Shown here in pieces: positions 571-16,779 of a stretch of DNA of 24,048 bases (position 1 is its first letter; every line of letters begins with the position of its first letter). The translations under genes and the position numbers were made by a program. The stretch is taken from the IMG/VR virus record IMGVR_UViG_3300028283_000033, positions 1 to 24,048 of that record; one strand, written 5' to 3'. Under the pieces are notes generated by a model, which saw only the letters and a list, made by a program, of their open reading frames with translations, ran no database searches and was not told the origin of the DNA. The stretch is from a virus.

Positions 571-1872
571 TTAAGGAATAACATAATAACACATTGCACC
601 AGCAGTAGCATTTTGCCAGTCAGTATTATCCTGAAGCATAGGTACGATTGTACCATCATTATAATGCGTACATTTCCAGTTGGAAGCAACCCATACCTGA
701 TTACCAATTTTCACTGTCTGATAAATATTACTATCAAAGTCTGTTACAGTATCTCCAGGATTCCATGTATTAGGGTCATCTTTAATAAATCGTATAGAAA
801 TGCCATAATTAACATAACCTTGAGCATTAACTATACTTGTAAGAAAACTAGCCACACCATAATACCAGTAAATAATATTGTTCGTCCAATATTCTCCAAT
901 AGTCTTAAATGAAGTAGGAGTACCATTAACTAATCTAAATCCAGAACCTCTTGCAGAAAATCCTGAACTATTAGTAGCATCAGCATTAGGAGCATTCCAA
1001 TAAGTAGTTCCTATTGTTTTAACCGCACTTCCTGCTGTATTAGGTGTCGATAAGTATCCACTTCCGTCTATAGTAATAGCATTATCTAACTCTTGAGCCA
1101 AAGTATCAAATTGTTCCTTTGTTGGTAAACTATATCCAGTTGGAGCCATTGGTGAGTCTGGAGCATCATCTCCTGTTGTATCTCCAATTGCTGCTCTCCA
1201 ATTATATAAATAACCATAATCTTCTACAATAGGAGGAGCAGTTGTAGAAGTACTTGTTGTGGTTGTAGTTGTAGAAGTACTCGTGGATGTGGATGTACTA
1301 GTGGATGTACTTGTGCTCGTGCTGGTTGATGTAGAAGTACTTGTTGATGTTGAAGTTGACGTAGATGTACTTGTGCTTGTAGACGTACTTGTTGATGTAC
1401 TTGTACTAGTTGATGTAGAAGTGCTTGTACTTGTTGATGTTGATGTACTTGTAGATGTACTCGTTGATGTTGATGTACTAGTACTGGTTGATGTACTCGT
1501 TGATGTTGAGGTACTTGTACTAGTTGAGGTACTCGTTGATGTTGAGGTACTTGTACTAGTTGTACTGGTACTAGTTGAGGTACTCGTTGATGTTGAGGTA
1601 CTGGTACTAGTTGTACTGGTACTAGTTGTACTGGTTGATGTACTGGTGGTGGTGGTTGTTCCGTAAAGATATAATATTAATGATGATGTACATGCACCTA
1701 CAGATGTAATTGTAACATTATCTATTGTAGGATCAACAGTCACAGTTTTTCCTGCTAACAATTCTGTTAATGTTGCAGTTGGAGGTACTACACTTCCCAC
1801 ATTTGCAGTAAGAGTAAAATTAGGTCCCAATCCCCCCCCTAACCCAGCATTTATACTTATAATTACATTCAT
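571..1872 (-). CDS. Thr/Ser-repeat tail fibre-like protein with C-terminal permuted FISUMP domain
   Basis: This 433-residue protein has three parts. Residues 1-70 are a short Gly- and Thr-rich head (MNVIISINAGLGGG...). Residues about 71-211 are an almost pure Thr-Ser alternation. Residues about 218-433 resemble a FISUMP domain, a C-type-lectin/formylglycine-enzyme-like fold common in Bacteroidota surface and phage proteins. Recognisable FISUMP blocks are YGYLYNW, GYSLPTKEQFDTL, SSGFSARGSGFR, ISIRFIKDD, then IYQTVKIGNQVW and YNDGTIVPMLQDNTDW. The last two blocks normally come first, so the domain looks circularly permuted. The role is inferred to be a receptor- or glycan-binding fibre tip on an extended linker. 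The ATG at 1870-1872 has the leader AATAATAGAATAAA and no Shine-Dalgarno sequence. A TATAAATA octamer (1883-1890, minus strand), matching the T4 late-promoter core, lies 10 nt upstream. Confidence 0.85.
   Translation of the reverse strand: MNVIISINAGLGGGLGPNFTLTANVGSVVPPTATLTELLAGKTVTVDPTIDNVTITSVGACTSSLILYLYGTTTTTSTSTSTTSTSTTSTSTSTSTSTSTSTSTTSTSTSTSTSTSTSTSTSTSTSTSTSTSTSTSTSTSTSTSTSTSTSTSTSTSTSTSTSTSTSTSTSTSTSTSTSTSTSTSTSTSTSTSTSTSTSTSTTTTTTSTSTTAPPIVEDYGYLYNWRAAIGDTTGDDAPDSPMAPTGYSLPTKEQFDTLAQELDNAITIDGSGYLSTPNTAGSAVKTIGTTYWNAPNADATNSSGFSARGSGFRLVNGTPTSFKTIGEYWTNNIIYWYYGVASFLTSIVNAQGYVNYGISIRFIKDDPNTWNPGDTVTDFDSNIYQTVKIGNQVWVASNWKCTHYNDGTIVPMLQDNTDWQNATAGAMCYYVIP
1240..1662 (-). repeat. (Thr-Ser)n-coding imperfect hexanucleotide repeat
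   Basis: The minus strand reads ACN followed by AGY or TCN for about 140 codons, giving an almost unbroken Thr-Ser alternation. The 6-bp unit is degenerate. Longer units such as GTTGAGGTACTCGTTGATG (plus strand) recur around 1500-1600. The tract is a protein linker; the long Val/Leu/Asp-rich open frame on the opposite strand is a by-product of the hexamer. Confidence 0.9.
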
Positions 1873-1961
1873 TTTATTCTATTATTTATATTTACATAAT
1901 CCATTTAACCTATCGCTCGATATTCTAATTATTGTAATATCAAACATTTTGACACTTAATC

Positions 1962-4364
1962 TTATAGATAATAACAACGAGCACCTGTTGAAAGAATACT
2001 CCAAGCACTAGCGTTCATTACTTCTGGGATAGGACTTCCGTCTCTATATAGTGTTTCTTTTGAATTAGACAACATCCATACCTGTGTTCCAATTTTTACT
2101 GTATCGTATGTTTGTCCATCATTTCCAGTATATTTATCGCCTATAGTCCAGCTTGAATCATCTTTAATAAGTCTTACCGAATGACCTTCTATATTCTTAG
2201 TTGCTGGATAATTCATACTATAAACATCAGCACTGGTAGTGATTCGATTTAATGCAATACCGTTTGTATAATTACCCCCAAAGAATAATGTATCACTTGA
2301 CCATAAATATAAGGTCAGCCTAGTGTTTCCAAATACTCCATCGGGTTGTCTATAACCAGCAGGAAGCCCTAGAAATCCACTACTATTTGTTGCCCCCGCA
2401 TTAGGAGTTAACCAATGAACCGTACCAGTTTCTTTTAGTGCTCCACCAGCTATCGCATCTCCACCAAGATAAGTTACAAGGTCTCTAAACTCATTATATG
2501 TTGGTACATGCCAGCCAGTATTGGCAATACTATTAACCCCAGTACCAGATATGGCAAAATAGTTATATAATCTACCATATACATCAACAATGGGAGGAGC
2601 AGTTGTAGATGTACTAGTACTAGTCGATGTACTTGTACTTGTGCTTGTAGAAGTGCTAGTACTAGTTGATGTACTTGTACTTGTTGATGTAGTTGAAGTG
2701 GTTGTACTTAAATCAATAACAATTGTTCCCCCATTATAAACACAACTAGGTAATGTCGTTGTTGAAGTACTCGTTGATGTAGATGTACTGGTTGATGTAG
2801 ACGTACTCGTTGTACTAGTACTCGTTGATGTAGACGTACTTGTTGAAGTGCTACTTGTTGAAGTGCTACTAGTTGATGTACTGGTACTTGTTGATGTACT
2901 CGTTGATGTAGACGTACTCGTTGAACTAGTACTCGTTGATGTTGATGTACTCGTTGATGTAGATGTACTGGTACTAGTTGTACTGGTACTAGTTGTACTG
3001 GTACTAGTTGTACTGGTACTAGTTGTACTGGTACTAGTTGTTGTGGTTGTACCTATTATCGGTACAACGCCAATACCATTAACAATATAATCTGGAAGTG
3101 TCCAAGACCTATTTGATTTATATGACATTGCAAATAACAGTTCTTGGTCTTCAATTAAAAATATCTTCAATTCTGTAAACACCTTACCCACAATATTACC
3201 GCTAGCATCTGCCAAATCATAATATTTAGTATTAAGAGATTTTGTGATACCACTTAATGTTTTGGTATTACCCGTTGGTACAAGAGTAATACCCATTGTT
3301 GTGGTATTTGATTTATGCCACATAATCCAAGGTATTTCTAATTTAGATGTTTTTAATAATAACTCATCACCATATGTATTTGTTGGTGCTTCATTACTAT
3401 AGTGAACGATACCCAATTTACTATAAACAGGTATTTGCTGTTGAATATATGATATAAATCCAGCATATGTTCTGCTTGGTAATTGTGTAAATTTTCTGTC
3501 GCTATATTGAGTGCCCGCAATTTCTTCGGTATATACAATTGACAAATTCCAAAAAGGAAACGAAGGGGCTGAACATTCATTATTTTGACTAAATAACAAT
3601 ACATTTTCACTAATATAATCAGTAGCCAAATCATTATATATTGTACTTCCAGTATAATTTAAAAAATTATAGTAAATCATTGCGCCAGCAATGCCATTAT
3701 ACAATGTATTTCCACTGAAATTAGGTAAATTTCTATCAACGGTGATCACTAAATTATTGTTACCCAATGTTCCAGTTTTAGAGACAATTTGGTATGTTAA
3801 ATATGGTGCTGGATTATTTTTATTTATAGTATATCCAGTTGTACTTCCATAATGCACCCATTTAACCAAAAGTAAATCGCCAATAGCTGGCTCTTGACCG
3901 CTTGTGCCATATGCGGGTGTTTTTTTTAATTTTAAAGTTCTACCACCAGTAACTCCCGTAACATAAACCATTGCGTCTGGTTGTTTAACATGGTCTGCAT
4001 TAACTATAAAAGTTGTTGCATCATCCGAAAAAAATCCAAGCGGATTTACTTTATTGGTAACATCATATGACTTTGAAGAAATTGTTGGTATTATATTATA
4101 TGGGTCGCCAGATATTATGTTGGGAACAAAAGAAATTATTTTAGGATGTTTATCCGTTGGTTGTAAAATGCTTGAACTAGCTACAATATCCGCTTCATTT
4201 GTTAATAAACTAATATTAACATCTCTAACGAAATTATAATCAATTTCACTATCACCAATAGCAAAATATTTGAACGTTAAATTTCCAGTAGATAATTGTT
4301 CTCTACCTTTTGATGTTAACATCACATTTAAAACTAAGGGGTCTTTTTTATCAATAAATGCCAC
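1962..4364 (-). CDS. Paralogous-anchor tail fibre protein with Thr/Ser linkers and permuted FISUMP tip
   Basis: This 800-residue protein starts at GTG (4362-4364). An in-frame TGA lies just upstream, so no longer start is possible. Residues 1 to about 435 form an anchor domain opening MAFIDKKDP, with TSKGREQLSTGNLTFKYFA and GDSEIDY. I recall similar openings in proteins of T4-like phages, and inferred placement is on the baseplate or tail. The domain is clearly homologous, about 85% identical in DNA at its start, to the neighbour 4446-7688. Two Thr-Ser tracts follow (about 436-535 and 553-588), separated by a short non-repetitive insert with CVYNGGTIVIDL. The end (about 590-800) is a FISUMP-like domain: YGRLYNY, GWHVPTYNEF, GALKETGTVHWLTPNAGATN, SVRLIKDD, then YDTVKIGTQVWM and YRDGSPIPEV, again permuted. 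It most likely presents a ligand-binding tip on an elongated stalk. Confidence 0.87.
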   Translation of the reverse strand: MAFIDKKDPLVLNVMLTSKGREQLSTGNLTFKYFAIGDSEIDYNFVRDVNISLLTNEADIVASSSILQPTDKHPKIISFVPNIISGDPYNIIPTISSKSYDVTNKVNPLGFFSDDATTFIVNADHVKQPDAMVYVTGVTGGRTLKLKKTPAYGTSGQEPAIGDLLLVKWVHYGSTTGYTINKNNPAPYLTYQIVSKTGTLGNNNLVITVDRNLPNFSGNTLYNGIAGAMIYYNFLNYTGSTIYNDLATDYISENVLLFSQNNECSAPSFPFWNLSIVYTEEIAGTQYSDRKFTQLPSRTYAGFISYIQQQIPVYSKLGIVHYSNEAPTNTYGDELLLKTSKLEIPWIMWHKSNTTTMGITLVPTGNTKTLSGITKSLNTKYYDLADASGNIVGKVFTELKIFLIEDQELLFAMSYKSNRSWTLPDYIVNGIGVVPIIGTTTTTSTSTTSTSTTSTSTTSTSTTSTSTSTSTSTSTSTSTSSTSTSTSTSTSTSTSTSTSSTSTSSTSTSTSTSTSTSTTSTSTSTSTSTSTSTSTTTLPSCVYNGGTIVIDLSTTTSTTSTSTSTSTSTSTSTSTSTSTSTSTSTSTTAPPIVDVYGRLYNYFAISGTGVNSIANTGWHVPTYNEFRDLVTYLGGDAIAGGALKETGTVHWLTPNAGATNSSGFLGLPAGYRQPDGVFGNTRLTLYLWSSDTLFFGGNYTNGIALNRITTSADVYSMNYPATKNIEGHSVRLIKDDSSWTIGDKYTGNDGQTYDTVKIGTQVWMLSNSKETLYRDGSPIPEVMNASAWSILSTGARCYYL
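2600..2705 (-). repeat. Second (Thr-Ser)n tract of the 1962-4364 gene
   Basis: This is a degenerate ACN-AGY/TCN hexamer tract of about 35 codons immediately before the FISUMP-like domain. It ends in the linker TTAPPIVD, which is nearly the same as TTAPPIVED at the equivalent point of 571-1872. That suggests the linker and tip were copied together. Confidence 0.8.
2755..3055 (-). repeat. First (Thr-Ser)n tract of the 1962-4364 gene, with a perfect 15-bp tandem block
   Basis: The tract joins the anchor domain to the downstream modules. Within it, positions 2965-3039 hold five perfect consecutive copies of the 15-mer GTACTGGTACTAGTT (plus strand), encoding a TTSTS period. Perfect identity there, against degenerate hexamers elsewhere, points to recent slippage or amplification. 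Confidence 0.88.
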
Positions 4365-4381
4365 TTTACAAGAATTTAATC

Positions 4382-4389
4382 ATAAATAC
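4382..4389. promoter_or_regulatory. Candidate promoter octamer upstream of 1962-4364
   Basis: The minus strand reads GTATTTAT, 17 nt before the GTG start. The same octamer at the same spacing lies upstream of 4446-7688 and 8861-13231, and at 16 nt upstream of 18638-19036. On the plus strand it reads ATAAATAC, close to the T4 late-promoter core TATAAATA plus C, so the functional orientation is uncertain. Confidence 0.4.
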
Positions 4390-4445
4390 TAAAAACAATT
4401 TTTTATATTGGACAATATTAGAACAATCACCATTCATTTATTATT

Positions 4446-7400
4446 CTAAACGGTATTATCTAAATTAGCAATTACTGTTACCACACCCCCTGCGATTATT
4501 GTTATAGGACAACTACCACTACCCGATGTTGCTGGATTATGCCATAAGGAAGCATTACATGTTACACTATTAACATGATTGTTATAATCTAAATTAGGAC
4601 AATCCCAACTTACTGTTAATATTTTATTAGTACCAATATTAGACGGGTCAATGTCAAAAGACACCCCTCTACTAAATAAATTAGGAGCTATGTACGCCCA
4701 AGGTATATCGGCAATCAAAGGATCGGTTGGTGAAACATAATCAATACCATCTATACTTACTTTAGTAATTCTTGCATTACCATATCCTTGTCCAGTTACG
4801 CTAATAGATATAAAAGTACGAACAGGTGGAACAGGAGGAGCTGTAGTGGTTGGTGTCACAGTTCTAAATGTATATTGAGCACCATAACCAGTTAAAGTCG
4901 AATTATGCGCATAAGCTTTGAATACATAATCCGTATTTGTTATCAACCCAGTCAAATCTATAACAATAACACCTGTTCCAGTGTTACCATCTGATACATA
5001 CACACCCGCTTCTGGTGGCATCCCGCTTGCAACAGTAGCATAGCAAATACCTCTAGCAATAATTGTCGACCCACCATTATCATATGCATAACCACCAAGA
5101 GTTGCAGTTGTTGCACCAATTTCATTTGGAACTGGCTGTGTGGTTGACACCCCGGGCGCACCCACTGGTGGTGCTGGCGGTCCTTCGGTGGTGGTGGTTA
5201 TTACACTTAATGTTGTAAATGTTTCCACATTAGCGGCATAATAAGTATGAGTTAAATTATCAATAACAATTGCTTTGTACACATACCCAGTATTATTAGA
5301 TAAACCGTTGACATAAAAACAATATGAACCTAATCCACCACCACTAGCATATACAGATGTACCAGCCTCTGGTGGCATTCCAGAACTATATTGAGCAGCA
5401 GTAATATAAACAATACCCTTTGCAACAACAGAGCCAGTTCCTTCTGATGTTACAGTTCCACAAACTCCCGCACTATTTTCTCCAGAATAAAATGATGCAG
5501 CTGTAACCACTGCTGGAATAGGTGGTGCAGCAGTTGTGCTGGTTGAGGTAGTGGTACTTGTTGAAGTACTTGTGCTAGTTGAGGTACTTGTTGAGGTACT
5601 TGTTGAGGTACTTGATGTTGAGGTACTTGTACTCGTTGTTGTACTTGAAGTTGAGGTACTTGTACTTGTTGTTGTACTTGTACTTGTTGTTGTACTTGTA
5701 CTTGTTGTTGTACTTGTTGAAGTACTTGTTGAGGTAGATGTGGTTGTTGATGTACTGGTGGTTGTTGCCACTGAGGTATCATATATTAAAACATTAACAT
5801 AACCACCATTTACAAAATCGATATTATTAATTAAATAGTCCCCAGCAATAGTATATGGTTGTGTATTTGTATGTCCAACTGAATCCCATACAGATACAAC
5901 TGGTAATACACCGCCAGCACCTAAAACAGATACAGTTACGGTTGAGCCAAATACTTCTCCCCTAGTCGTGCTAACTACTCCACTACTAAAAGTAACTGGA
6001 TAATCTGGAATTATGTTTAAATGATTACCATTTATTTTAGTATTTGATATTGAGATACCATTTATTCTTGTTTGTAAATAAACATTGGGTGATGGCAATG
6101 TGGTGCTTGTAGACGTACTTGTACTTGTAGATGTACTTGTAGACGTACTTGTAGATGTACTTGTTGTAGAGGTACTTGTTGTAGAGGTACTTGTTGTCGT
6201 TGTACCAATTGGTGGTAATGTCGTTGTGCTTGTTGAAGTACTAGTTGAGGTACTTGTACTTGTTGTGGTACTTGTACTTGTTGTGGTACTAGTACTCGTT
6301 GTGGTACTAGTAGATGTGGTTGTGCTCGTACTCGTTGTTGTTGGAGCAGCACCAGCACCGCCAATACTACCAACAAGATAATCTGGAAGCGACCAAGACC
6401 TATTTGATTTATAAGACATTGCGAATAATAATTCCTGATCTTCGATTAAGAACATTTTTAATTCTGTAAGTACTTTCCCAACAATGTTACCATCTAGGTC
6501 AGCTAAATCATAATATTTTAAGTTTAAAGATTTTGTTTCACCCGTTAATAATTTAACAACACCAATTGGAACAAGAGTTGCACCCATTGTGGTAGTGCTT
6601 GATTTATGCCACAATATGTTGGGTATCTCTAGTTTGGCGGTTTTTAGATATAATTCTTCTGCATATACATTTGCTGGGGAGTTATTTGTATAGTGTATTA
6701 TCCCTAATTTTTTATAAATTGGTGCTTGATTTTGAATATACGAAACAAACCCACCATATGTTCTACTATTAAACTGACCGAACTTTCTATCTGCAGTCTT
6801 AATACCCGCAATTTCTTCGGTATATATGATGGACATATTCCAATATGGAAATATAATGGTAGGACATTCAGTGTTATTTAAAAATGATGAAACACTCTCA
6901 TTTTTATATATAGCAATAGTATCATTAAACTCCGTACCACCACTATAATTAATGGTATTATAATAAATCATTGCACCAGCTTTGGCTGTGGGATAATATC
7001 CACTAAAGTTTGGTAATTTTCTGTCAACAGTAACAATCAGATTATTATTACCCAACGCACCAGTTTTACCAATAATTTGATACATCAAATATGGTGTTGG
7101 AACATTTTTATTTATTGTATATCCCGTAGTGTTTGTATAAATGCTCCATTTAACCAAAAGATAATCACCAATTAAAGGTTCATTGATGTTAGCACCATAT
7201 GTCGGTGCTTTTTTTAGACTTAAATTTGTTCCACCAGTAATTTCACTTACAACAACCATTGCATCTGGTTGTTTAACATGATTAGTATCGGTAATAAAGG
7301 TAGTTCCACTATTTGTGAAAAATCCTATTGATGTTGTTTTATTAACAATATCATAAGGCGTTGATGGTACTCTTAATATTAAATTATATGGATTACCAGA

Positions 7401-7688
7401 TATTGAATTAATCGAATTAATTGAATTACCCGTTGTATTTCTCGGAATGAAAGAAATTATATTTGGATTTTTATTAACTGGTCTTAAAATACTTGAATCA
7501 AGTGGATATGGATTATAATTGAGATGTGATTCAATTTCATTAATTTTATTTATTAATCCATAATCAACTTCACTGTCTCCAACAGCAAAATATTTGAATG
7601 TTAAGTTTCCAGTAGATAATAATTCTCTACCTTTCGATGTTAACATTATATTTAAAACAACAGGGTCTTTTTTATTAATAAATGCCAC
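4446..7688 (-). CDS. Large multi-domain Thr/Ser-linked tail fibre protein (anchor, shared domain, two FN3-like domains)
   Basis: This 1080-residue protein starts at GTG, with the same 28-nt leader as its paralogue 1962-4364. Residues 1 to about 445 are the shared anchor domain (MAFINKKDP, TSKGRELLSTGNLTFKYFA, GDSEVDY). A broken Thr-Ser tract with the spacer LPPIG follows (about 447-530). Next is a domain (about 530-640) containing INGNHLNIIPDYPV that is homologous to one in 14725-16770. A third Thr-Ser tract covers about 641-718. Two FN3-like β-sandwich domains (about 720-828 and 832-945) each carry GMPPEAG, so they look like an internal duplication. A terminal β-rich domain (about 946-1080) has IDGIDYVSPTDPLI, faintly like the shared domain. 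There is no FISUMP tip. The likely role is a tail fibre or adhesin on the same baseplate site as its paralogue; function is inferred from architecture only. Confidence 0.85.
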   Translation of the reverse strand: MAFINKKDPVVLNIMLTSKGRELLSTGNLTFKYFAVGDSEVDYGLINKINEIESHLNYNPYPLDSSILRPVNKNPNIISFIPRNTTGNSINSINSISGNPYNLILRVPSTPYDIVNKTTSIGFFTNSGTTFITDTNHVKQPDAMVVVSEITGGTNLSLKKAPTYGANINEPLIGDYLLVKWSIYTNTTGYTINKNVPTPYLMYQIIGKTGALGNNNLIVTVDRKLPNFSGYYPTAKAGAMIYYNTINYSGGTEFNDTIAIYKNESVSSFLNNTECPTIIFPYWNMSIIYTEEIAGIKTADRKFGQFNSRTYGGFVSYIQNQAPIYKKLGIIHYTNNSPANVYAEELYLKTAKLEIPNILWHKSSTTTMGATLVPIGVVKLLTGETKSLNLKYYDLADLDGNIVGKVLTELKMFLIEDQELLFAMSYKSNRSWSLPDYLVGSIGGAGAAPTTTSTSTTTSTSTTTSTSTTTSTSTTTSTSTSTSTSTSTTTLPPIGTTTTSTSTTSTSTTSTSTSTSTSTSTSTSTSTSTTLPSPNVYLQTRINGISISNTKINGNHLNIIPDYPVTFSSGVVSTTRGEVFGSTVTVSVLGAGGVLPVVSVWDSVGHTNTQPYTIAGDYLINNIDFVNGGYVNVLIYDTSVATTTSTSTTTSTSTSTSTSTTTSTSTTTSTSTTTSTSTSTSSTTTSTSTSTSSTSTSTSTSTSTSTSTSTSTTTSTSTTAAPPIPAVVTAASFYSGENSAGVCGTVTSEGTGSVVAKGIVYITAAQYSSGMPPEAGTSVYASGGGLGSYCFYVNGLSNNTGYVYKAIVIDNLTHTYYAANVETFTTLSVITTTTEGPPAPPVGAPGVSTTQPVPNEIGATTATLGGYAYDNGGSTIIARGICYATVASGMPPEAGVYVSDGNTGTGVIVIDLTGLITNTDYVFKAYAHNSTLTGYGAQYTFRTVTPTTTAPPVPPVRTFISISVTGQGYGNARITKVSIDGIDYVSPTDPLIADIPWAYIAPNLFSRGVSFDIDPSNIGTNKILTVSWDCPNLDYNNHVNSVTCNASLWHNPATSGSGSCPITIIAGGVVTVIANLDNTV
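5530..5765 (-). repeat. Third (Thr-Ser)n tract of the 4446-7688 gene
   Basis: This is a degenerate Thr/Ser hexamer tract of about 78 codons between the shared IPDYPV domain and the first FN3-like domain. It includes repeated 18-bp units with TTGTTGTTGTACTTGTAC (plus strand) around 5635-5710. Other reading frames give Gln/Val-rich or Val/Leu-rich peptides that are not genes. Confidence 0.85.
6100..6350 (-). repeat. First and second (Thr-Ser)n tracts of the 4446-7688 gene
   Basis: Two Thr/Ser hexamer blocks flank a TLPPIGTT spacer. Positions 6175-6240 are identical over 66 nt to 16328-16393 in the fibre gene 14725-16770, spacer included. This is direct evidence for exchange or duplication between the two genes. 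Confidence 0.88.
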
Positions 7689-7705
7689 TTTACAAGAATT
7701 TAATC

Positions 7706-7713
7706 ATAAATAC
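7706..7713. promoter_or_regulatory. Candidate promoter octamer upstream of 4446-7688
   Basis: The minus strand reads GTATTTAT, 17 nt before the GTG start at 7688. The whole 28-nt leader (7689-7716) is identical to that of 1962-4364, so on its own this copy could reflect duplication. The independent copies at 13249 and 19053 make conservation of a functional site more likely. Confidence 0.4.
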
Positions 7714-7747
7714 TAATAAATTAAAAAATTCCAACTAAGTCACATAA

Positions 7748-8833
7748 TTAAACAGATGGCGTTATTATGTCGCCTTCATTAAACAATCCCTGATTTGTAA
7801 TTAAATTATATGTTAACGTTGCAATTCTTTCACCAGAGGATGCTCTAGCTGCATCGCCTGTTATTGCAAATGTCACTTGTTTTCCAACAGAACTTACGTC
7901 AGCTGTTGAAGTATATCCAGCGTTCGAAAATGTGTAAGTTGAAGGATTGAGTGTCATTACGCCACCTTTATATAATTTCCCAGCAACATTGACTGGTTGA
8001 TACCCAACAGTATTATACCAAAATCCTCTCATATCCACAAGAATTTCTGTTGCAAACGGATATTGTAATCTAAATTGGACTAAATCAACTAAAACCGATT
8101 CAAATCCAGTTCCAGTATTATCGCCAGCCCACTTTAAATACTGTGTACCAACTAAGGGCCACCCTTGCAGTACACCCCACCCCAAATATGTTGATTGTGT
8201 ATTTTGTCCCACATCGGGTGTAACTATTCTAGTTCTAGTATCCAAATCTCGACCATCAGTAAATTGATAAGTTAATACCATATAATCAGCATCAAATACA
8301 AATATGTTTGGGTTGGTTAGTTGTGATTTAATTTCCCCATATCCACTTCCCACAGTATTTTTTACAAATGCCCTGTAAAAAGTTTCAACGTTCGGTAAAA
8401 GACCCGTCAATAAATTTCCACTACCAGTAAAATAACCTGTATTTATTGCAATATCTGCACTAATTGATTGTTTACTAACGTTTGGGTTTCCATATACCAT
8501 CTGTAAATCTGTTGCATATGCAACAGATTGCGTATATAATACACCATATTCATTAGCATTAAGATTACCCTTATCTGTTACACAACTATTACAAACTCCA
8601 ATACTATTCTCAGTAATATCATATGCAACACCAGTAGTTACCGTTGGCACATGTGTTGGAACTGGTAATGTTGTTATTTGACATGTTTCACCACAATAAG
8701 ATACACCGTCCACAATCATATATGCACGATATTCATATAGAGTAGATGGTAATAAACTTGCAATCGTGCAAGTATAATTATCTGCAGGGATCGCTCCCGT
8801 ATGCAATGGTGTTGTTATCCAAGGTATTGACAT
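7748..8833 (-). CDS. Phage tail-associated protein with FN3-like N-terminus and conserved β-rich C-terminal domain
   Basis: This 361-residue protein starts at ATG 8831-8833. The N-terminus enters what looks like the middle of an FN3-like domain (LLPSTLYEYRAYM...). A second, more complete FN3-like unit follows (about residues 55-175), with GVAYDITENSIGVCNS and the closing pattern VETFYRAFVKNT. Residues about 180-361 form a separate β-rich domain: FDADYMVLTYQFTDGRDLD, LVDMRGFWYNTVG, SGERIATLTYN. I recall related sequences in other Bacteroidota phages but know no named function. The gene begins 27 nt after the large baseplate/adhesin gene, whose C-terminal modules are of the same kind, so the two probably act in one fibre or baseplate-peripheral structure. 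No signal peptide or membrane segment is visible. Confidence 0.75.
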   Translation of the reverse strand: MSIPWITTPLHTGAIPADNYTCTIASLLPSTLYEYRAYMIVDGVSYCGETCQITTLPVPTHVPTVTTGVAYDITENSIGVCNSCVTDKGNLNANEYGVLYTQSVAYATDLQMVYGNPNVSKQSISADIAINTGYFTGSGNLLTGLLPNVETFYRAFVKNTVGSGYGEIKSQLTNPNIFVFDADYMVLTYQFTDGRDLDTRTRIVTPDVGQNTQSTYLGWGVLQGWPLVGTQYLKWAGDNTGTGFESVLVDLVQFRLQYPFATEILVDMRGFWYNTVGYQPVNVAGKLYKGGVMTLNPSTYTFSNAGYTSTADVSSVGKQVTFAITGDAARASSGERIATLTYNLITNQGLFNEGDIITPSV

Positions 8834-8860
8834 ATTCTATTATTATTAATTATAAGTATT

Positions 8861-11800
8861 TTAAAAAATTAAACTATCGGTTTGAGCAGTCTTTGATAAG
8901 CAATATGTTGGAGTTGTACCTATTGCAAAACTGCCAACACCATTCACAACACTTGATATTGAAATTGACGAAGTACTGGGCAATCCAGTTATTACTTGTG
9001 CATCTGAATAAACCCTTACACCCAGACAATCATTATATTTGACAAGAATCGGTCCCCACGTACCTGCACAACTGGTAGCTTGTTTACAGCTATATACACA
9101 TGAATACAATGGATTACCATTACAGTAAACATCATAGCAATGTATTAAAGGAAAACCAGCCGCAGGATTAGTACCACCCCAATTAAGATATACAGAATAG
9201 CACTCTAAAACACCAACAGGTGAAACAGAATCCACCCTACCACAAGCCAATTTACATAATTGTTGTGTATCATCGCCACCAGACTCACAATACATATTCA
9301 CATAATTAGATGTTGGTAAACCAGATGCTTGACTAATACTAACTTGTTTTGTTGTACCAATAGTTGGTATATAACATACAATACCAGACCTTGCAGCACC
9401 ACTATTTGTGTCAACAATAATTTCATTTATTGTACCTGTTGGTGACGGTGGAACTGGTGCAGAATTAATTATCCATGTAAGTGCAGGTGCTTTTGATATT
9501 GTATATACGTTAGTTGCCTCACCAATCACGCTGATATCTGAAATACTTGACGTTGATGCTAATGTTAATGTTGTTGGGCTTATTTGAATATCAGACGTAC
9601 TAGGACCCAATTCCCTATATTGCATACCATAATATTGACTATCTGCATAACGAACAATATTCTTACCACCAGTATAATCAATTGCGTATACATTTGCCGT
9701 ACCTTGACATGTACTGATATATGGCGTTGCTGCTGGGGCTGGTATTGTTATTTGCAAAGTATTTCCAGTATAACCATAAATTCCAGACACGACATATGCC
9801 CTATATTGATACACAGTATCGAATGTTAGTCCGTCTACAGATTCTGAGAAATTATCAACCGATAATGAACCATATTGAGGTACTTTAGTCCAAGCACCAC
9901 CACTTAATTTTTTATATTCAATACCATATCCAGTAAGAACATTATACCCTTGGATGAACTTACCACCACTATAAAATTTACCATTCAATGAACCATTAAA
10001 TGGTGAACCAATACTGGTTTCCACATATAATGTAGGTGGAGGCGGTGGTGGAAGTGGTATTGTCTGAGCAATCATAAATAATGCACCATCAGTACCATAA
10101 TATTGAACAATTGGGTTACCTCTTTTGTCAATTGTGGTTGATGAACCTGAATATACATTAACACCTCTTCTATACATGAATTTTTGTTTACTAAAAATAG
10201 TGTTTCTAACTAATAACCCACCTCTTCTCAAAATAATTGTTGCGGGTAATAATTGATCTACAAATCTTTGGAAGAAAGAATTATACTTACTTAAAAATGA
10301 ATATAAATTATGGAAAGTATAGCCATTGGATTTCAAAGGGTCTCCATCTGGAAGATTACTTCTTTTTAAATATTCGACATATATCCTTAATAGTGCGGGA
10401 TACCAACCACCCTTAAAATCACTAATAGTTTTTCTATTTCTAGCATTTATCATTTTTTTCTGAATTAAATCAATAAATTCAAGAAATGATAATTTACTAA
10501 TATCTCCAACACCAAAAACATCATGAATAACTGGTTTAAATATTGCATTACCACCAACAAGATAATATACACTAATAATTGTACCAAATCTAATACCTCT
10601 TGGCAAGAATATTTCATATGGATTCAATGAATTAACACTGTAATCCCTATTAGGCTCTAAAGCAATACCATCCACTAATACTTTAATATCACTTGCACTA
10701 TTTGTCTTATAATTAAGTCTATAAACAAATTTATTTGCCGATTGGTCGAAATATATTTTATTGGCGTTAATACTATCAACTCTAACAACTTCACTTCTAG
10801 CCGAAATATCATTACTACCAACAACTTCGACATATGCGATTTGAACTGTGGAATTCCCCTGTAAATACGAAATTACCTCTGGGTTTTGTATTATAAGCTT
10901 ATTATTTATACCACCAACCGTATTACTTGGATCAACAATATAATCTGCAGTAAATTGCGATGTTCCTTTGGTTAATGCAATACCGTTTATTGTGACTTGA
11001 ACATCGCCACGTGGATAACTTGGTAATGGAATTATCGTTCCTGTTACATCAGCTTTAATTCTAGTTACAACATATTCAACTGTAATTCCACTAATTGAGT
11101 GAGTTCCACCACTATATACAAATGTTGCTTGAATAACATCCCTTCTACCGCCAGAATTAATTGCTGTACCACCAATCAATGTAAATGTATTGGTATTATA
11201 GTTAATGGAGTAATCCGACTGATATGTGATTCCAGTGGTTGTTCCGCTAGTTGTTCCACTTTTAGGGGCATTTAGTAAAATACCGTTAAATCGAACTTCG
11301 AAATCTCCCAGTGTTCTATCAACATTATAAGGTAAAGTAAATGTATCTTGAGTACCATCATAATTTAGAGAGATATTGACATATGAAAATGGTAACGTAT
11401 ATCCGCTTGAGTTAATTGCAAAATCTTTTTTAATATAATCATATACATCATATTCAATTCCACGTGCAGTATCAAGTGCAACATCAACTTCTTTTGTGTT
11501 TATAACTAATTTACTATCTTCTTGATAATATTGTGGTGTTGTATCATCATATCTATATGTTGCACCACTTTGTGACCATGATTTCTTGTTATCAATAGTT
11601 CTTCTTAACTCAAATCCAGCCATACGGAATACATCCAAATATGCCTGACCACCATCGGTATCACCAGATAGTTGAAAGAAAAAATCGCTTACTTCTAATG
11701 GTGCTGAAGGATAACCCTCGGTATCATATGGCAGTGACTTTGATGGATAATCATTTATTGATAATCCAACAGTATTTGGGTTAATTTTGCCATCAACAGT

Positions 11801-13231
11801 ATATACATATTCAGTAATATTAATGAAAGGTTCGGGAATACCAATTAAAAGGAATATTGACCTAATTGCTTCTCTAGTACCTTTAGTTTTCCAAAAATAA
11901 CTAGTATTCATTAATATTCTTCTCCAAAGCTCAATATCAATCTCTGCTGGGAGTAAATTGGTATTCAAATCTCTTTCATTTTCATCAATAGTTAAAAAAC
12001 TATTAACCAATTCCCCCTCATTAACCAATGAAAAATAATCCCAACCAAAAGTATTTGACATATTTTTAATTAATTGGTCGGGAATATTATTTACCTTATC
12101 GTATGATACTCTATTGATATAAACCAACGAGTCTATGAATTCTCTTAATTGGTCAAATTCTCTACCATAAATTCTCAATAATTTAGTCATTTTACCCTCT
12201 TCGGTGAGGTCATATGCTTTCAATGAAGATGGGGTTAAAAATCTTGCAATTAAGTCTGTTTTTATTTTATCATATTTAGCACCAATAGTCAAGATGATCT
12301 CTAAAAATCTTTGATAACTTGGTGAATTTATATCGATATTATAACTATCACTTGTTACCCAAAGTAACGTAGTATCCGTATATATTATACTCCCATCATC
12401 AAGTAGTGAGGGGTCTTTAAAAGTAAATTTAAATCCTTTAGTTCCATCTCTGGTTGAGACAATATATTTTTCATATTCATTTAATAATGCCCTAAATTCT
12501 TCAAAAACAAAATTATTTGGCTTTATATGAAAATCAACCTGTGATGAAGTAGTTCCACTAATCATTGAGAACGGGTTTCCCATTACAGTTAACGTCAAGT
12601 AATTGCGACCCGAAGTATTTCCAATAAATTCAATAACATTACAAGTATTATTATCAGGTGCAAGAGATGTCCATACAACATATTTATCGTAAGATATGTT
12701 GATATTTTTTAATTCATTGTCATTTGGCAAACTAACGTTTCCATAATTATATACCAATCCAAATGTATTGTCAATACAAACTGTTGGGATTTTAAACGAT
12801 GAAGTATTTGTTACTAAATCATAGGCGTAATCAAAATATGTTACATTACCACCTCTAGATGATTGTGAATTCATGTAAATTGAGCCCGGGTACGAAGTGA
12901 TAATCCTCTCAACTGAAACTCTTAAAAATTCATATGCCGAACCAAATCTAATAAATGTGTTCAAATCCGATTTATCTAGATTTAGAACTGCATTTGTCGC
13001 ATATTGATAAATTATGTTAGACTGAGTATCAGAAACGCCCATAGTTTCTAAAGTAACGGGACGAACAAATGAACTTAGGACATTTGTATAATCAATATAT
13101 TTTCTTCCATCAAAATTTGATGTTACCGCAAAGCTGCCAAACGAAAATATTGTTTCGGATGCAGTATTATTAAAATTATTGCCATTTAAATTCTGGTCGA
13201 GATTATTATTTACAACTTTTACTTTTGCCAC
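8861..13231 (-). CDS. Very large baseplate/tail protein: P2 gpI-like segment fused to FN3-like, BACON-like and Cys-rich domains
   Basis: This 1456-residue protein starts at GTG 13229-13231, with an in-frame stop a few codons upstream. Residues about 1-600 look like a baseplate component. FWKTKGTREAIRSIFLLIG (about 446-464) fits the 'W-x-KGT...I...G' signature of P2 gpI-type tail proteins. Three tandem β modules follow (about 620-890), each with a DFEVRFNGILL-like or DIKVLVDGIALEPNRDYSV-like strand pair. A conserved helical block (about 910-1040) precedes a proline run (PLPPPPPPTLY, about 1065). After it come an FN3-like unit (about 1072-1160) and a BACON-like unit (about 1213-1303; ISPTTLTL, ARSGIV, KQVSISQASG). 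BACON domains are carbohydrate/mucin-associated in Bacteroidota and occur in crAss-like phage tail proteins. The last 150 residues hold 11 cysteines. The protein probably joins the baseplate to host-glycan adhesion. It lies downstream of a hairpin and a candidate promoter octamer. Confidence 0.82.
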   Translation of the reverse strand: MAKVKVVNNNLDQNLNGNNFNNTASETIFSFGSFAVTSNFDGRKYIDYTNVLSSFVRPVTLETMGVSDTQSNIIYQYATNAVLNLDKSDLNTFIRFGSAYEFLRVSVERIITSYPGSIYMNSQSSRGGNVTYFDYAYDLVTNTSSFKIPTVCIDNTFGLVYNYGNVSLPNDNELKNINISYDKYVVWTSLAPDNNTCNVIEFIGNTSGRNYLTLTVMGNPFSMISGTTSSQVDFHIKPNNFVFEEFRALLNEYEKYIVSTRDGTKGFKFTFKDPSLLDDGSIIYTDTTLLWVTSDSYNIDINSPSYQRFLEIILTIGAKYDKIKTDLIARFLTPSSLKAYDLTEEGKMTKLLRIYGREFDQLREFIDSLVYINRVSYDKVNNIPDQLIKNMSNTFGWDYFSLVNEGELVNSFLTIDENERDLNTNLLPAEIDIELWRRILMNTSYFWKTKGTREAIRSIFLLIGIPEPFINITEYVYTVDGKINPNTVGLSINDYPSKSLPYDTEGYPSAPLEVSDFFFQLSGDTDGGQAYLDVFRMAGFELRRTIDNKKSWSQSGATYRYDDTTPQYYQEDSKLVINTKEVDVALDTARGIEYDVYDYIKKDFAINSSGYTLPFSYVNISLNYDGTQDTFTLPYNVDRTLGDFEVRFNGILLNAPKSGTTSGTTTGITYQSDYSINYNTNTFTLIGGTAINSGGRRDVIQATFVYSGGTHSISGITVEYVVTRIKADVTGTIIPLPSYPRGDVQVTINGIALTKGTSQFTADYIVDPSNTVGGINNKLIIQNPEVISYLQGNSTVQIAYVEVVGSNDISARSEVVRVDSINANKIYFDQSANKFVYRLNYKTNSASDIKVLVDGIALEPNRDYSVNSLNPYEIFLPRGIRFGTIISVYYLVGGNAIFKPVIHDVFGVGDISKLSFLEFIDLIQKKMINARNRKTISDFKGGWYPALLRIYVEYLKRSNLPDGDPLKSNGYTFHNLYSFLSKYNSFFQRFVDQLLPATIILRRGGLLVRNTIFSKQKFMYRRGVNVYSGSSTTIDKRGNPIVQYYGTDGALFMIAQTIPLPPPPPPTLYVETSIGSPFNGSLNGKFYSGGKFIQGYNVLTGYGIEYKKLSGGAWTKVPQYGSLSVDNFSESVDGLTFDTVYQYRAYVVSGIYGYTGNTLQITIPAPAATPYISTCQGTANVYAIDYTGGKNIVRYADSQYYGMQYRELGPSTSDIQISPTTLTLASTSSISDISVIGEATNVYTISKAPALTWIINSAPVPPSPTGTINEIIVDTNSGAARSGIVCYIPTIGTTKQVSISQASGLPTSNYVNMYCESGGDDTQQLCKLACGRVDSVSPVGVLECYSVYLNWGGTNPAAGFPLIHCYDVYCNGNPLYSCVYSCKQATSCAGTWGPILVKYNDCLGVRVYSDAQVITGLPSTSSISISSVVNGVGSFAIGTTPTYCLSKTAQTDSLIF

Positions 13232-13248
13232 GAACTTTATATTTTACT

Positions 13249-13256
13249 ATAAATAC
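13249..13256. promoter_or_regulatory. Candidate promoter octamer upstream of 8861-13231
   Basis: The minus strand reads GTATTTAT, 17 nt before the GTG start and about 10 nt after a terminator hairpin. The downstream context (AGTAAAAT) resembles that at 19053-19060 (ATGAAAAT). The plus strand reads TATAAATAC, which matches a T4-like late promoter core facing the hairpin. The position after a terminator supports a promoter role. Confidence 0.45.
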
Positions 13257-13265
13257 AGTAAAAAC

Positions 13266-13296
13266 AAAAATCCCAATTTTTTAAGTTGGGATTTTT
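13266..13296 (-). terminator. Rho-independent terminator between baseplate sub-units (bidirectional potential)
   Basis: AAAAATCCCAA (13266-13276) pairs with TTGGGATTTTT (13286-13296) around a 9-nt loop. On the minus strand the stem runs into TTTTTGTTTTT. The hairpin lies 19 nt past the stop of 13316-14215 and upstream of 8861-13231. The A and T tracts on both sides would let it work in either direction. Confidence 0.85.
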
Positions 13297-13315
13297 GAAT
13301 GTATTTGAATTTTAA

Positions 13316-14215
13316 TTAAATTCCTGCAACAACAGTGTCAAAATTTTCACTTTCATCAATAGTTGCTCTTTTTTCTTTTACTTCATATAAAGGTACATTG
13401 CTAGTATCATCTTTAATTTCAAACAAATTAAACTGTTTTGTTATTACCCTATCAGCATCATAATATGTTAAAATACCGTTTTGAACATCTTTTATTTGTT
13501 CGCCCGCAACATAATTTGCCAAAGTATCAAGTGTGTTTTCAACCATCTCAACTTCAACCACCAATGGAGAAAAATAAGTATTTGACATTAATATTGTTTG
13601 ATCAATATTTCCAATAAAAGGTAAAGCATTCGGTTTAACATCAGAAGCACTACTAGGAGTTACTTGTAAAAATATTAATATGCCAGCATCGTCAAAACGA
13701 TATCTTTGTGCTTTTTGTGTTGTATTTCCAACATTTTCACTAACCACAGAAACCTTATTAGAAGTAACCACATATCTAACAACATTTCTCAATTTAGTTC
13801 CATCACTATTAACATATTCAATTCTATACCCTTGTAGTGAGTTATTTGCCTGTAATTCTGATGGTATTGAGTTCATGTCAATAACAATTCCCTTAACAGT
13901 TGGTAATGCAGATAATACGCTACAATCAACAATTATTGTAGGAACTAATTTCGGCTTAAAATAAATTGTATATATGCCAAGCTGACTAAAAATTGAGGCG
14001 GGTAACTTTAAATCATATAATCCCTCTAAAAGATTTTCTGAATATCCAGCAATCCCTTCATCATAAGTAGTTGTGGATAAAAAATCTGAGCTATTAGTAA
14101 CTTTGACAATTTCCCCTGCAGGTGTTTGCCTATTTGGAGTATAATCATAGAACATGTCAATATCTGAGATATTAACGTCTGAGGGTCTTGTTATTCCGAA
14201 TGTAGATATCGACAC
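13316..14215 (-). CDS. Unrecognised phage structural candidate (baseplate neighbourhood)
   Basis: This 299-residue protein is not firmly recognised. GTG (14213-14215) is chosen because an in-frame TAA lies two codons upstream and the next Met is residue 21. The sequence is predicted to be β-rich: alternating hydrophobic strands such as LGIYTIYFKPKLVPTIIVD and VKGIVIDMNSIPS, few cysteines and no membrane segment. The C-terminus has an acidic stretch (ATIDESENFDTVV). It lies 18 nt after 14234-14680, in a run of baseplate genes, and is closed by a strong terminator, so a baseplate or fibre-attachment role is inferred from position alone. No motif separates an enzyme from a structural protein. 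Confidence 0.75.
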   Translation of the reverse strand: MSISTFGITRPSDVNISDIDMFYDYTPNRQTPAGEIVKVTNSSDFLSTTTYDEGIAGYSENLLEGLYDLKLPASIFSQLGIYTIYFKPKLVPTIIVDCSVLSALPTVKGIVIDMNSIPSELQANNSLQGYRIEYVNSDGTKLRNVVRYVVTSNKVSVVSENVGNTTQKAQRYRFDDAGILIFLQVTPSSASDVKPNALPFIGNIDQTILMSNTYFSPLVVEVEMVENTLDTLANYVAGEQIKDVQNGILTYYDADRVITKQFNLFEIKDDTSNVPLYEVKEKRATIDESENFDTVVAGI

Positions 14216-14233
14216 GTTTTAAATTTTAATTGT

Positions 14234-14680
14234 TTATGTATTATTTACAATATTAAAGAAGTTACCGCCAGCATATGTTTCCAAATCGCTTAAATTATTT
14301 ATATATTCTAATCTGTAATTTTTATCAAATGCCGATAATTGTTGTCTTGATATAAATACATCATCATTAATTTTTGGATTGCTAATGATATTATCTTTAT
14401 TTGGATTTTTAAAATACGGCACATTAATAAAATTAGCACTTGTAATACCCTGTGGCGTAAATATATTTAATGTTGTTCCAGAAGTAGTTCCTGACATTAT
14501 ATCAACATATTTTATTCCCCCAAGATAATATATAATTTTATTCAATGGATTTGAAATTGATAAATCAATACCATCACTATTAATAGTACCGCCAGTGACA
14601 TATTTTTTTGCAAATACATCTGTTACAGTATATTTACGCAATTCACTTAATCTGCTGGTTGATGTTCCCGTTATTATCAT
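14234..14680 (-). CDS. Unrecognised small phage protein (baseplate neighbourhood)
   Basis: This 148-residue protein starts at ATG 14678-14680 and opens MIITGTSTSRLSELRKYTVT. It is mixed β with many Asn, Ile and Thr residues and ends YAGGNFFNIVNNT. It has no cysteine, signal peptide or membrane helix. The region around residues 45-80 (IIYYLGGIKYVDIMSGTTSG) looks like a β-hairpin. I do not recognise the family. It is 44 nt from the Thr/Ser fibre gene upstream and 18 nt from the next gene, consistent with one transcript of baseplate or tail components. The leader is A-rich, without a Shine-Dalgarno sequence. Confidence 0.72.
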   Translation of the reverse strand: MIITGTSTSRLSELRKYTVTDVFAKKYVTGGTINSDGIDLSISNPLNKIIYYLGGIKYVDIMSGTTSGTTLNIFTPQGITSANFINVPYFKNPNKDNIISNPKINDDVFISRQQLSAFDKNYRLEYINNLSDLETYAGGNFFNIVNNT

Positions 14681-14724
14681 TTTTGTTTTTTATTTGACAT
14701 TATAATTTTACCAATAAATCATTA

Positions 14725-16770
14725 TCATATAATTTCAACATATGTTGTCCCTGTAAATACGTTTCCATCGGGATTACTTATATTTATAATATTTAATGTA
14801 ATCTTTACATTTCCTACACTGTCTCCACAATATGTAGTTTGCACCCCACTTACAGTAAATGACGATGATTGTGATGTAGCACTACCATAATAAGCAAGAC
14901 CACTTGAAATAGTATCGGAATCACTTGTGGACGGGTCTGGATTACTTGATGATGCAGACGCTTCATAAACAGATTTACTTATGCTCTGTGGTGTACCAGT
15001 TCCATCTATTGTGTAAGTGAAACTTGCATTTGATTGTGGAGGGAAATCACAGTTAATCCAACTTTGAGATGCAAATGCTTCAACAGTTATTGTGAATTTT
15101 ACACTAGCATTCCCAATGTCACCAAAATTCAAGTTCCCTGCGGCATCTAAACCAAAATAAACAGTTGGTGGTGGTGGCAACGTTGTCGTACTAGTTGTCG
15201 TACTAGTTGTCGTACTGGTTGTAGTACTGGTTGTAGTACTGGTTGTAGTTGCTGTGGGTAATGTCCAAAAATCAATAACAGCACCATATGATTCACCAAC
15301 AGATGTTTGACAATATGCTTTCACCCAATAATGAGTATTTGGGATAAATGTATTGAGGTTGTTAATTGTTTGTGGCGTTGACGAACTTGAGTACGATACA
15401 TACACATCATACGTAATACCATCGGTGGAACGCCAAAATCCCCAATTATACATAGTGCCACTACCAACCGAAAACAATGTAACACTAACATATGCACTAA
15501 CATCTATAATGCTAGTGACACTATCAGTTAATATTGTAGCCAATACAGGCGGTTCTGTTGTCGTTGTTGAGGTACTTGTGCTAGTGGATGTTGTACTTGT
15601 TGAAGTACTTGTACTTGTTGAAGTACTTGTACTAGTGGATGTACTTGTGCTAGTGGATGTACTTGTACTGGTACTAGTTGATGTGGTTGTAGTCCCGGGC
15701 ACAGGCGGCAACGTAGTACTTGTGCTAGTAGAAGTACTTGTGGTTGAGGTTGATGTGCTGGTAGAAGTACTTGTACTTGTGGTTGATGTGCTAGTAGAAG
15801 TTGTTGTAGTTGAGGTTGATGTGCTAGTAGAAGTTGTTGTAGTTGAGGTTGAGGTTGATGTGCTGGTAGAAGTACTTGTACTTGTGGTTGATGTGCTAGT
15901 AGAAGTTGTTGTAGTTGTTGAAGTTGATATACTATCCTTAATATTGATATATACATTCCCGTTGCCAGCAAAATTTACATTAGAGAATGGATAATCATTA
16001 GGACCACTAATAGTTAAAGGTAATGTCTGAATAACACCTGATGTATCAATTATTTCAATATATGGAGTATTTGTTAACGGTCCTGCAGCGGTTACAATTA
16101 CGTTTGCCCCAAGAACCCCTAATTTTGATGTTAATCTACTTGTAGCAATCGGATAATCAGGAGTTACGTTAAGTGAAATTCCATTTATTTGTATATTTTG
16201 AAACGCATGACCCATACTAACCACTTCAATATGTACGATAGCATATGGTGATAGCGTGGTTGAGGTACTTGTGGAAGTACTAGTAGAGGTACTGGTGGAA
16301 GTACTTGTAGACGTACTTGTAGATGTGCTTGTTGTAGAGGTACTTGTTGTCGTTGTACCAATTGGTGGTAATGTCGTTGTGCTTGTTGAAGTAGTTGAAG
16401 TACTGGTTGATGTAGATGTACTGGTTGAAGTACTTGTTGATGTACTTGTACTGGTTGATGTTGAAGTACTTGTGCTTGTTGAAGTAGTTGAAGTACTGGT
16501 TGATGTAGATGTACTGGTTGAAGTACTTGTACTGGTTGATGTTGAAGTACTTGTGCTTGTTGTAGATGTACTGGTTGAAGTGGTTGTTGAGGTACTTGTA
16601 GTTGTTATCGGTGCTATATATGCATCAAAAAAACCAATATCTTTATCTTCAGATACTAGTCCAAATTTCATGTGATAAATTTTAGTTAAATCTGGAACAA
16701 TAACAGTATCCCCACCAGATGTTTTTCCAGTGGTTACTATCTGTAATATTGATTTTTTGATTATTTCCAT
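14725..16770 (-). CDS. Thr/Ser-repeat tail fibre-like protein embedded in the baseplate gene cluster
   Basis: This 681-residue protein starts at ATG 16768-16770. A short anchor, residues 1-52 (MEIIKKSILQIVTTGKTSGG..., HMKFGLVSEDKDIGFFDAYI), differs from the anchors of the other Thr/Ser proteins. It leads into a Thr-Ser tract (about 53-172) and then a roughly 105-residue domain with INGISLNVTPDYPI, homologous to the IPDYPV domain of 4446-7688. A second tract (about 279-405), an FN3-like domain (about 406-505; NTHYWVKAYCQTSVGESYG), a TTTS-period tract (about 506-530) and a C-terminal β domain (about 531-681; SWINCDFPPQSNASFTYTID) complete it. It starts 9 nt after the gp6-like gene, a spacing implying co-translation and perhaps physical association with the baseplate wedge. 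It is probably a fibre or adhesin; the ligand is unknown. Confidence 0.83.
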   Translation of the reverse strand: MEIIKKSILQIVTTGKTSGGDTVIVPDLTKIYHMKFGLVSEDKDIGFFDAYIAPITTTSTSTTTSTSTSTTSTSTSTSTSTSTSTSTSTSTSTSTTSTSTSTSTSTSTSTSTSTSTSTSTSTSTSTTSTSTTTLPPIGTTTTSTSTTSTSTSTSTSTSTSTSTSTSTSTSTTLSPYAIVHIEVVSMGHAFQNIQINGISLNVTPDYPIATSRLTSKLGVLGANVIVTAAGPLTNTPYIEIIDTSGVIQTLPLTISGPNDYPFSNVNFAGNGNVYINIKDSISTSTTTTTSTSTSTTSTSTSTSTSTSTSTTTTSTSTSTSTTTTSTSTSTTSTSTSTSTSTSTTSTSTSTSTTLPPVPGTTTTSTSTSTSTSTSTSTSTSTSTSTSTSTSTSTTSTSTSTSTTTTEPPVLATILTDSVTSIIDVSAYVSVTLFSVGSGTMYNWGFWRSTDGITYDVYVSYSSSSTPQTINNLNTFIPNTHYWVKAYCQTSVGESYGAVIDFWTLPTATTTSTTTSTTTSTTTSTTTSTTTLPPPPTVYFGLDAAGNLNFGDIGNASVKFTITVEAFASQSWINCDFPPQSNASFTYTIDGTGTPQSISKSVYEASASSSNPDPSTSDSDTISSGLAYYGSATSQSSSFTVSGVQTTYCGDSVGNVKITLNIINISNPDGNVFTGTTYVEII
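15178..15252 (-). repeat. 12-bp tandem repeat encoding (TTTS)n
   Basis: Six near-identical 12-bp units of the type GTTGTCGTACTA or GTTGTAGTACTG (plus strand) encode a Thr-Thr-Thr-Ser period. They link the FN3-like domain to the C-terminal domain of the 14725-16770 protein. The period differs from the 6-bp tracts elsewhere. Confidence 0.85.
15555..15932 (-). repeat. Second Thr/Ser tract of the 14725-16770 gene
   Basis: About 126 codons of Thr/Ser hexamers are broken once by a LPPVPG spacer near 15700. A larger unit containing GTAGAAGTTGTTGTAGTTGA (plus strand) recurs at about 15797, 15829 and 15901, showing segmental duplication on top of the hexamer. Confidence 0.85.
16255..16612 (-). repeat. 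First Thr/Ser tract of the 14725-16770 gene, with a 93/81-bp direct duplication
   Basis: This Thr/Ser hexamer tract contains a direct duplication. 16379-16471 (93 bp) and 16472-16552 (81 bp) are the same sequence, except that the second copy lacks the 12-bp GTTGATGTACTT. The length difference is a multiple of the 6-bp unit, so frame and alternation are kept. 16328-16393 is identical to 6175-6240. Confidence 0.88.
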
Positions 16771-16779
16771 TAATTTATG

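Follow-up and report, generated by a model that had tools for sequence, protein, structure and literature searches.

The window analysed here, one whole IMG/VR record (IMGVR_UViG_3300028283_000033) of 24,048 bases, is a fragment of a jumbo-type myophage, and four of its genes, referred to as A to D, lie inside its baseplate cluster. Our reading, to which we give a probability of roughly three in four, is that these genes encode virion adhesins of a T4-like jumbo phage, in which baseplate sockets carry Thr/Ser stalks and tips that are replaced by recombination, partly via the stalk DNA. In the window and its relatives the sockets are conserved, the tips have been exchanged and have hopped between slots, tract DNA has been copied between genes, and a tract has changed in length. 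The tail cluster is on the minus strand with gp25-like (PF04965) and gp6-like (phrog_219) baseplate genes at its head, and all four genes are intact open reading frames (ORFs) on that strand, at the positions assigned to them in an initial annotation. The features referred to below are as follows.

571 to 1872, minus strand: gene A (433 aa), with anchor at 1660-1872, Thr/Ser tract at 1240-1659 and FISUMP tip at 574-1239.
1962 to 4364, minus strand: gene B (800 aa), with anchor at 3051-4364, tract at 2754-3050, a 15-aa spacer, tract at 2601-2708 and FISUMP tip at 1965-2600.
4446 to 7688, minus strand: gene C (1080 aa), with anchor at 6342-7688, tracts at 6219-6341 and 6099-6203 flanking LPPIG, IPDYP domain at 5766-6098, tract at 5532-5765, and FN3-like repeats plus end domain at 4449-5531.
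7748 to 8833, minus strand: gene E, the fifth slot, with FN3-like anchor at 8309-8833 and a phrog_24956 tip, tract-free in the window.
8861 to 13231, minus strand: gene F (1456 aa), an FN3-like array with a phrog_24956-type tip at the C-terminus.
14234 to 14680, minus strand: x148, a conserved baseplate-region protein.
14725 to 16770, minus strand: gene D (681 aa), with anchor at 16615-16770, tracts at 16372-16605 and 16255-16356 flanking LPPIG, IPDYP domain at 15928-16254, tracts at 15712-15927 and 15556-15693, FN3-like part at 15250-15555, tract at 15181-15249 and end domain at 14728-15180.
16318 to 16395, minus strand: tract-LPPIG-tract block of 26 codons in D (residues 126-151), with its counterpart at residues 483-508 of gene C (6165-6242).
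16619 to 16830, unstranded: 212-nucleotide (nt) segment that takes in the final part of the gp6 gene together with the D anchor, with one mismatch to contig G002 and flanks at 83-88%.
16780 to 18621, minus strand: gp6-like baseplate wedge protein (phrog_219).
18638 to 19036, minus strand: gp25-like baseplate wedge protein (PF04965).

Counting as a tract any Thr/Ser run of at least eight residues, the tracts measure 140 residues in A, 99 and 36 in B, 41, 35 and 78 in C, and 78, 34, 72, 46 and 23 in D. They stand behind three anchor types, of about 71 aa in A, about 438-449 aa in B and C, and about 52 aa in D, and the anchors of B and C are paralogues sharing 64% identity. The ORF check, tract lengths and anchor comparison thus confirm what the initial annotation had described, namely four genes with Thr-Ser linkers behind three anchors, one of them, of about 435 aa, common to two genes. 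Its FISUMP tips are also confirmed, since PF09603 is found in the tips of A (2.1e-16, 61.2 bits) and B (2.1e-23, 84 bits) above the curated Pfam cut-off of 33.9, as is its IPDYP domain common to C (residues 531-641) and D (residues 173-281), which is homologous between the two at 33% identity (E 2e-12). The FN3-like tips that it had named stand on profile links, which connect C 714-1028 and D 399-602 with the FN3-like arrays of neighbouring genes E and F, but a Pfam search for fn3 gave no match. Gene E, overlooked in that annotation, is a fifth slot and is fused to F in some relatives. A structural assignment of the B anchor was abandoned because the AlphaFold model was poor (predicted local distance difference test, pLDDT, 53.6) and had no fold match; a sequence search of the PDB found no relative of this anchor, and the phage record collection contained no match to it.

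Scanning IMG/VR with the B and C anchors gave 22 relatives, and a scan with gp6 gave at least 80 (125 found); contigs in the relative set reach 365 kb. The main comparison is with two related phages, one represented by G002 and the near-identical contigs G003 and G004, the other by the 327-kb contig G001. Among the loci examined, only these and the window have Thr/Ser tracts, the tract-free relatives having other stalks (for instance Thr-Pro in L032 or poly-Thr in L049) or none. One relative has, next to a phrog_4417 relative, a protein ending in a (Ser-Cys)17 tract that is unique among the family loci (L018:7973-9943).

Gene order is collinear from the gp25/gp6 region to B in the window and its relatives, and the flanking genes of the window and G002 are 83-93% identical, yet the tips differ. 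The clearest case is slot D, in which residues 1-51 of the window and G002 are 100% identical (99% at the nucleotide level) and everything beyond is unrelated: past the anchor, the window has the IPDYP domain and FN3-like parts, G002 an A-anchor-like domain followed by a tract and FISUMP, and G001 an unrelated part of 695 residues. In slot E, the tract-free phrog_24956 tip of the window is replaced in G002 and G003 by a tract of 192 or 235 residues and another tip, and in G001 the slot is bare. The B and C anchors are 71-85% identical across relatives with different tips. Slot B has FISUMP in both the window and G002, with tips at 39% identity against 83% for the anchors, and an unrelated tip in G001; in slot C the middle domain between two tracts differs, and the FN3-like region past it is homologous again (51%). 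The position of the A cassette varies too: it comes after B in the window but after D in G001, and in G002 it forms part of D.

The same tip families were said to occur behind different anchors, and this is borne out. FISUMP is found in slots A, B and D, the D and B tips of G002 scoring above the Pfam cut-off; the phrog_24956 family is shared by D, E and F and the FN3 type by B, D, E and F; and the tip of A in G001 is that of B in L032 (52%) and of the F end in L048. The swapping of tips in related phages was likewise found, and fixed pairing of anchor and tip among collinear relatives was looked for and did not occur. Tips have therefore been exchanged behind conserved anchors and moved between slots. 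As related viruses present different tips on the same sockets, we see here a host-attachment parts list being reshuffled. A quick tree of 88 FISUMP domains was dropped as proof of exchange, its support being weak and a single origin possible, and a wider IPDYP family including the E tip of G002 and the C domains of G001 was rejected on account of low hhalign scores.

The initial annotation had further proposed that the repeats serve as recombination points, and on this the evidence is divided. In slots B and C homology reaches the tract, or stops a few residues short of it, and the next domain differs. The E and B tracts of G002 share 71 identical nt, when synonymous shuffles give a maximum of 35-38 (Bonferroni p 3e-6). 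In the window, the tract-LPPIG-tract blocks of C and D have 23 of 26 codons identical, with a local score of 84 against 70 or less in 1000 synonymous shuffles, and adjoin IPDYP domains that are just 33% identical. The E tracts of G002 and G003 differ in length by 129 nt bounded by 63-nt direct repeats. On the other side, tips are also varied in many tract-free relatives.

Several findings weigh against the reading given at the outset. The sharpest junction, in D, falls at anchor codon 51, which is 4-22 codons ahead of the tracts and outside the repeats. The tract pairs significant after Bonferroni correction are two out of 253, one of them within a single gene, and the 129-nt difference may be a short-read assembly error. 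A search of IMG/VR for close donors of three window tips gave no contig with a recent identical tip. The FISUMP model is good (pLDDT 89.6), but its fold match is weak (C-type lectin 1egg, Z 3.4), a strong structure match in the PDB was not found, and a sequence search gave no solved structure. Recombined DNA common to most tracts was considered and rejected after correction, with those two pairs significant and the B/A pair of the window borderline at 0.07; only about 6% of tract pairs beat synonymous shuffles at p<0.05, most being no closer than the shuffles.

The D junction deserves attention in its own right. Over positions 16619-16830 the window and G002 differ at 1 of 212 nt, whereas their divergence is about 12% across the remainder of gp6 (P ~5e-11) and about 17% within x148. 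Since G001 is only 81% identical over the same positions, constraint does not account for this near-identity, which marks a recent exchange, and the edge at 16618 is a recombination junction. In G001, a homing endonuclease gene (phrog_559, 3e-61; L112:4402-5112) sits immediately between gp6 and slot D, and gp25 and gp6 are separated by another ORF, which resembles treble-clef nucleases (L112:1590-2552); the endonuclease beside D is a plausible further driver of exchange. One could suppose that the tracts are only flexible spacers, alike by composition, and that exchange needs nothing beyond conserved anchors, neighbouring genes and homing endonucleases. This would fit the D junction with its near-identical DNA upstream, the endonuclease in G001, the varied tips of tract-free relatives and the small share of tract pairs above shuffle level, and we rate it a serious contender at a little under even odds. 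The 71-nt identity between E and B of G002 and the codon match of the C/D blocks, both above synonymous shuffles, argue against it, as does the homology reaching the tract in slots B and C with a different domain beyond. Because the cleanest swap breaks at the end of an anchor, the tracts are best regarded as one exchange route among others, that is, as a real but non-exclusive site of exchange.

A different explanation, compatible with recombination of tips and stalks, is that phage-encoded transferases glycosylate the Thr/Ser stalks, which would make these stalks mucin-like. In both tract-bearing lineages that extend beyond B, those of G001 and G002, the next gene after B is phrog_4417 (with a DxD-like motif); different glycosyltransferase/methyltransferase genes come after it, and then a conserved 240-residue gene. 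This sugar cassette (L108:1813-5553 in G002, L113:2149-5225 in G001) exists in the variants GT6/FkbM or DXD-GT/methyltransferase/GT2. About 19 tract-free relatives lack these genes after B, which is directly followed by the 240-residue gene in about 16 and by other genes in three more. Among the loci seen, the cassette stands after B only in tract-bearing lineages (Fisher 0.005, shared ancestry ignored), an association that suggests stalk glycosylation. However, the G001 and G002 lineages share ancestry, so that it may reflect one event; tract-free phages, too, can have phrog_4417 relatives; the window ends before the position of the cassette; the stalk is only a candidate target; and phage glycosyltransferases often modify DNA. 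Judged from gene content, phage-directed glycosylation of the stalks is possible but rather unlikely, and we would put forward only tentatively the corollary that glycosylated stalks and an exchangeable set of sugar transferases coexist in one cluster, with tip and sugar coat both swapped as cassettes. Moraphages, another lineage of large phages predicted to infect Bacteroidota, are reported to have several core glycosyltransferases (PMC12619734). The window has a glycosyltransferase gene at 21736-23121 (phrog_7162, 1.6e-31), conserved in 46 matching ORFs of relatives with or without Thr/Ser tracts. An incomplete ORF beginning MSCSNCFNGC, without a match in the phage collection, lies 3' of gene A at 1-552, a position after A resembling that of the sugar cassette after B in G001 and G002.

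It could also be that the repeat tracts made the assembler join unrelated tips to anchors, given that exact repeats of up to 132 nt occur inside tracts of these metagenome contigs. We consider this very improbable, as the correct conserved downstream gene follows every tip, G002 and G003 agree at 99.6-99.8% and G004 has the same B and C proteins, the D junction lies outside repeats, and contigs without tracts also hold bare, fused or otherwise extended anchors. Instead of being exchanged, the tips might have diversified within their own slots through rapid point mutation or a diversity-generating retroelement. Such a process would fit the contrast between FISUMP tips and anchors in slot B and the weak likeness of the FISUMP model to a C-type lectin (Z 3.4), the fold of the variable proteins of such retroelements. 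It is nevertheless hardly credible, since the tips found at a given slot frequently lack homology to one another, the same family sits at other slots, and no reverse transcriptase (PF00078) was found in the records of 14 relatives, including the 327-365 kb contigs, the window itself being a fragment. An invertible tip switch seems unlikely, there being no convincing pair of inverted repeats around the tips in the window; the serine invertase PF00239 was not found in G001 and G002 but is present elsewhere in G006 and G008.

The distribution of the anchors bears on the origin of the tips. Nine of 27 distinct complete B-type anchors are bare (431-448 aa), the other 18 having extensions of several unrelated families. 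Among 57 distinct D-anchor ORFs, 32 are small and bare and 18 are fused directly to x148, so that what is called the D 'anchor' forms the N-terminal portion of a protein that some relatives have in one piece with x148, and the D tips occupy a break within a gene. This gap is an insertion site, because in several relatives DUF6734 genes separate the D anchor gene from x148 (L034:12652-13521, L103:3698-4531 and others). As anchors are often bare, or fused to a neighbour, in distant relatives, the tips seem to have been added to baseplate proteins of an ordinary kind, and we infer that anchors preceded tips.

In the mechanism that we propose, conserved baseplate proteins, namely the anchors of B/C and of D, the C-terminus of F/E and the mobile A anchor, would act as sockets for accessory C-terminal tips, with a long, probably flexible Thr/Ser stalk between socket and tip. 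Tips and stalks would be replaced and relocated through recombination between co-infecting phages, probably homologous rather than end-joining. One side of an exchange would find its homology in conserved anchors or neighbouring genes; the other side, or an exchange inside a single genome, would find it in the stalk DNA, which is repetitive and similar between stalks and may also lengthen and shorten via repeat recombination. The tip proteins would be exposed on the surface, bind a receptor, probably a glycan, and function as adhesins. The earlier interpretation of the four genes as a toolkit is in this way partly supported. The case is a concrete and repeated one of attachment domains moving between phages and between unrelated anchor positions of one baseplate; it makes low-complexity stalk DNA testable as an exchange site, and the series of bare, fused and tipped anchors shows a route from structural baseplate protein to adhesin. 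If the sugar-gene association is true, it would tie phage glycosyltransferases to virion stalks.

The principle is ordinary, modular receptor-binding proteins being already known, whereas the Thr/Ser stalks, the movement of tips among several baseplate positions and the direct DNA evidence of tract copying are unusual. In the branched tailspike complex of Ackermannviridae (PMC11414711), as here, several receptor-binding proteins with conserved N-terminal parts share a baseplate, their C-terminal receptor-binding parts are exchanged, and recombination at conserved 5' gene ends has been proposed and shown. The available part of that account reports no low-complexity stalks of the kind formed by Thr/Ser here, and unlike in Ackermannviridae some of the anchors exist by themselves as baseplate proteins in relatives, and the tip families are spread across anchors that are unrelated. 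The collagen-like side tail fibres of E. coli prophages (PMC3368898) are likewise modular with a repetitive stalk, and their domain mixing has been attributed to recombination, but they consist of Gly-X-Y trimeric collagen rather than Thr/Ser and belong to prophages of one species; here, tract DNA was tested directly and proved to be copied between genes. In the present phages the Fib_succ_major family (FISUMP, PF09603) supplies one type among several interchangeable tips carried by baseplate anchors; among the papers searched, none paired FISUMP with phage and none on Thr/Ser stalks came up. The nearest isolate by gp6 (27%), of the Flavobacterium phage immuto group (MW353176), has the same order of gp25-type and gp6-type genes, followed by large genes and then genes annotated as tail fiber and tail spike; it differs in that a match to the B anchor is absent.

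A Thr/Ser pattern scan of IMG/VR gave at least 120 stretches. Unrelated phage contigs among them (L195, L202, L224, L229, L231, L240 and L255) each encode several Thr/Ser-linked paralogues on recurrent short anchors with varied tips, FISUMP-like in L202, and differ from the window in anchor families and gene sets. The A anchor is probably related to the L195-type anchor, the hhalign probability being 91% but an hmmsearch with the L195-type profile not listing A. Being found in several unrelated phages, the anchor-tract-tip layout is a recurrent solution.

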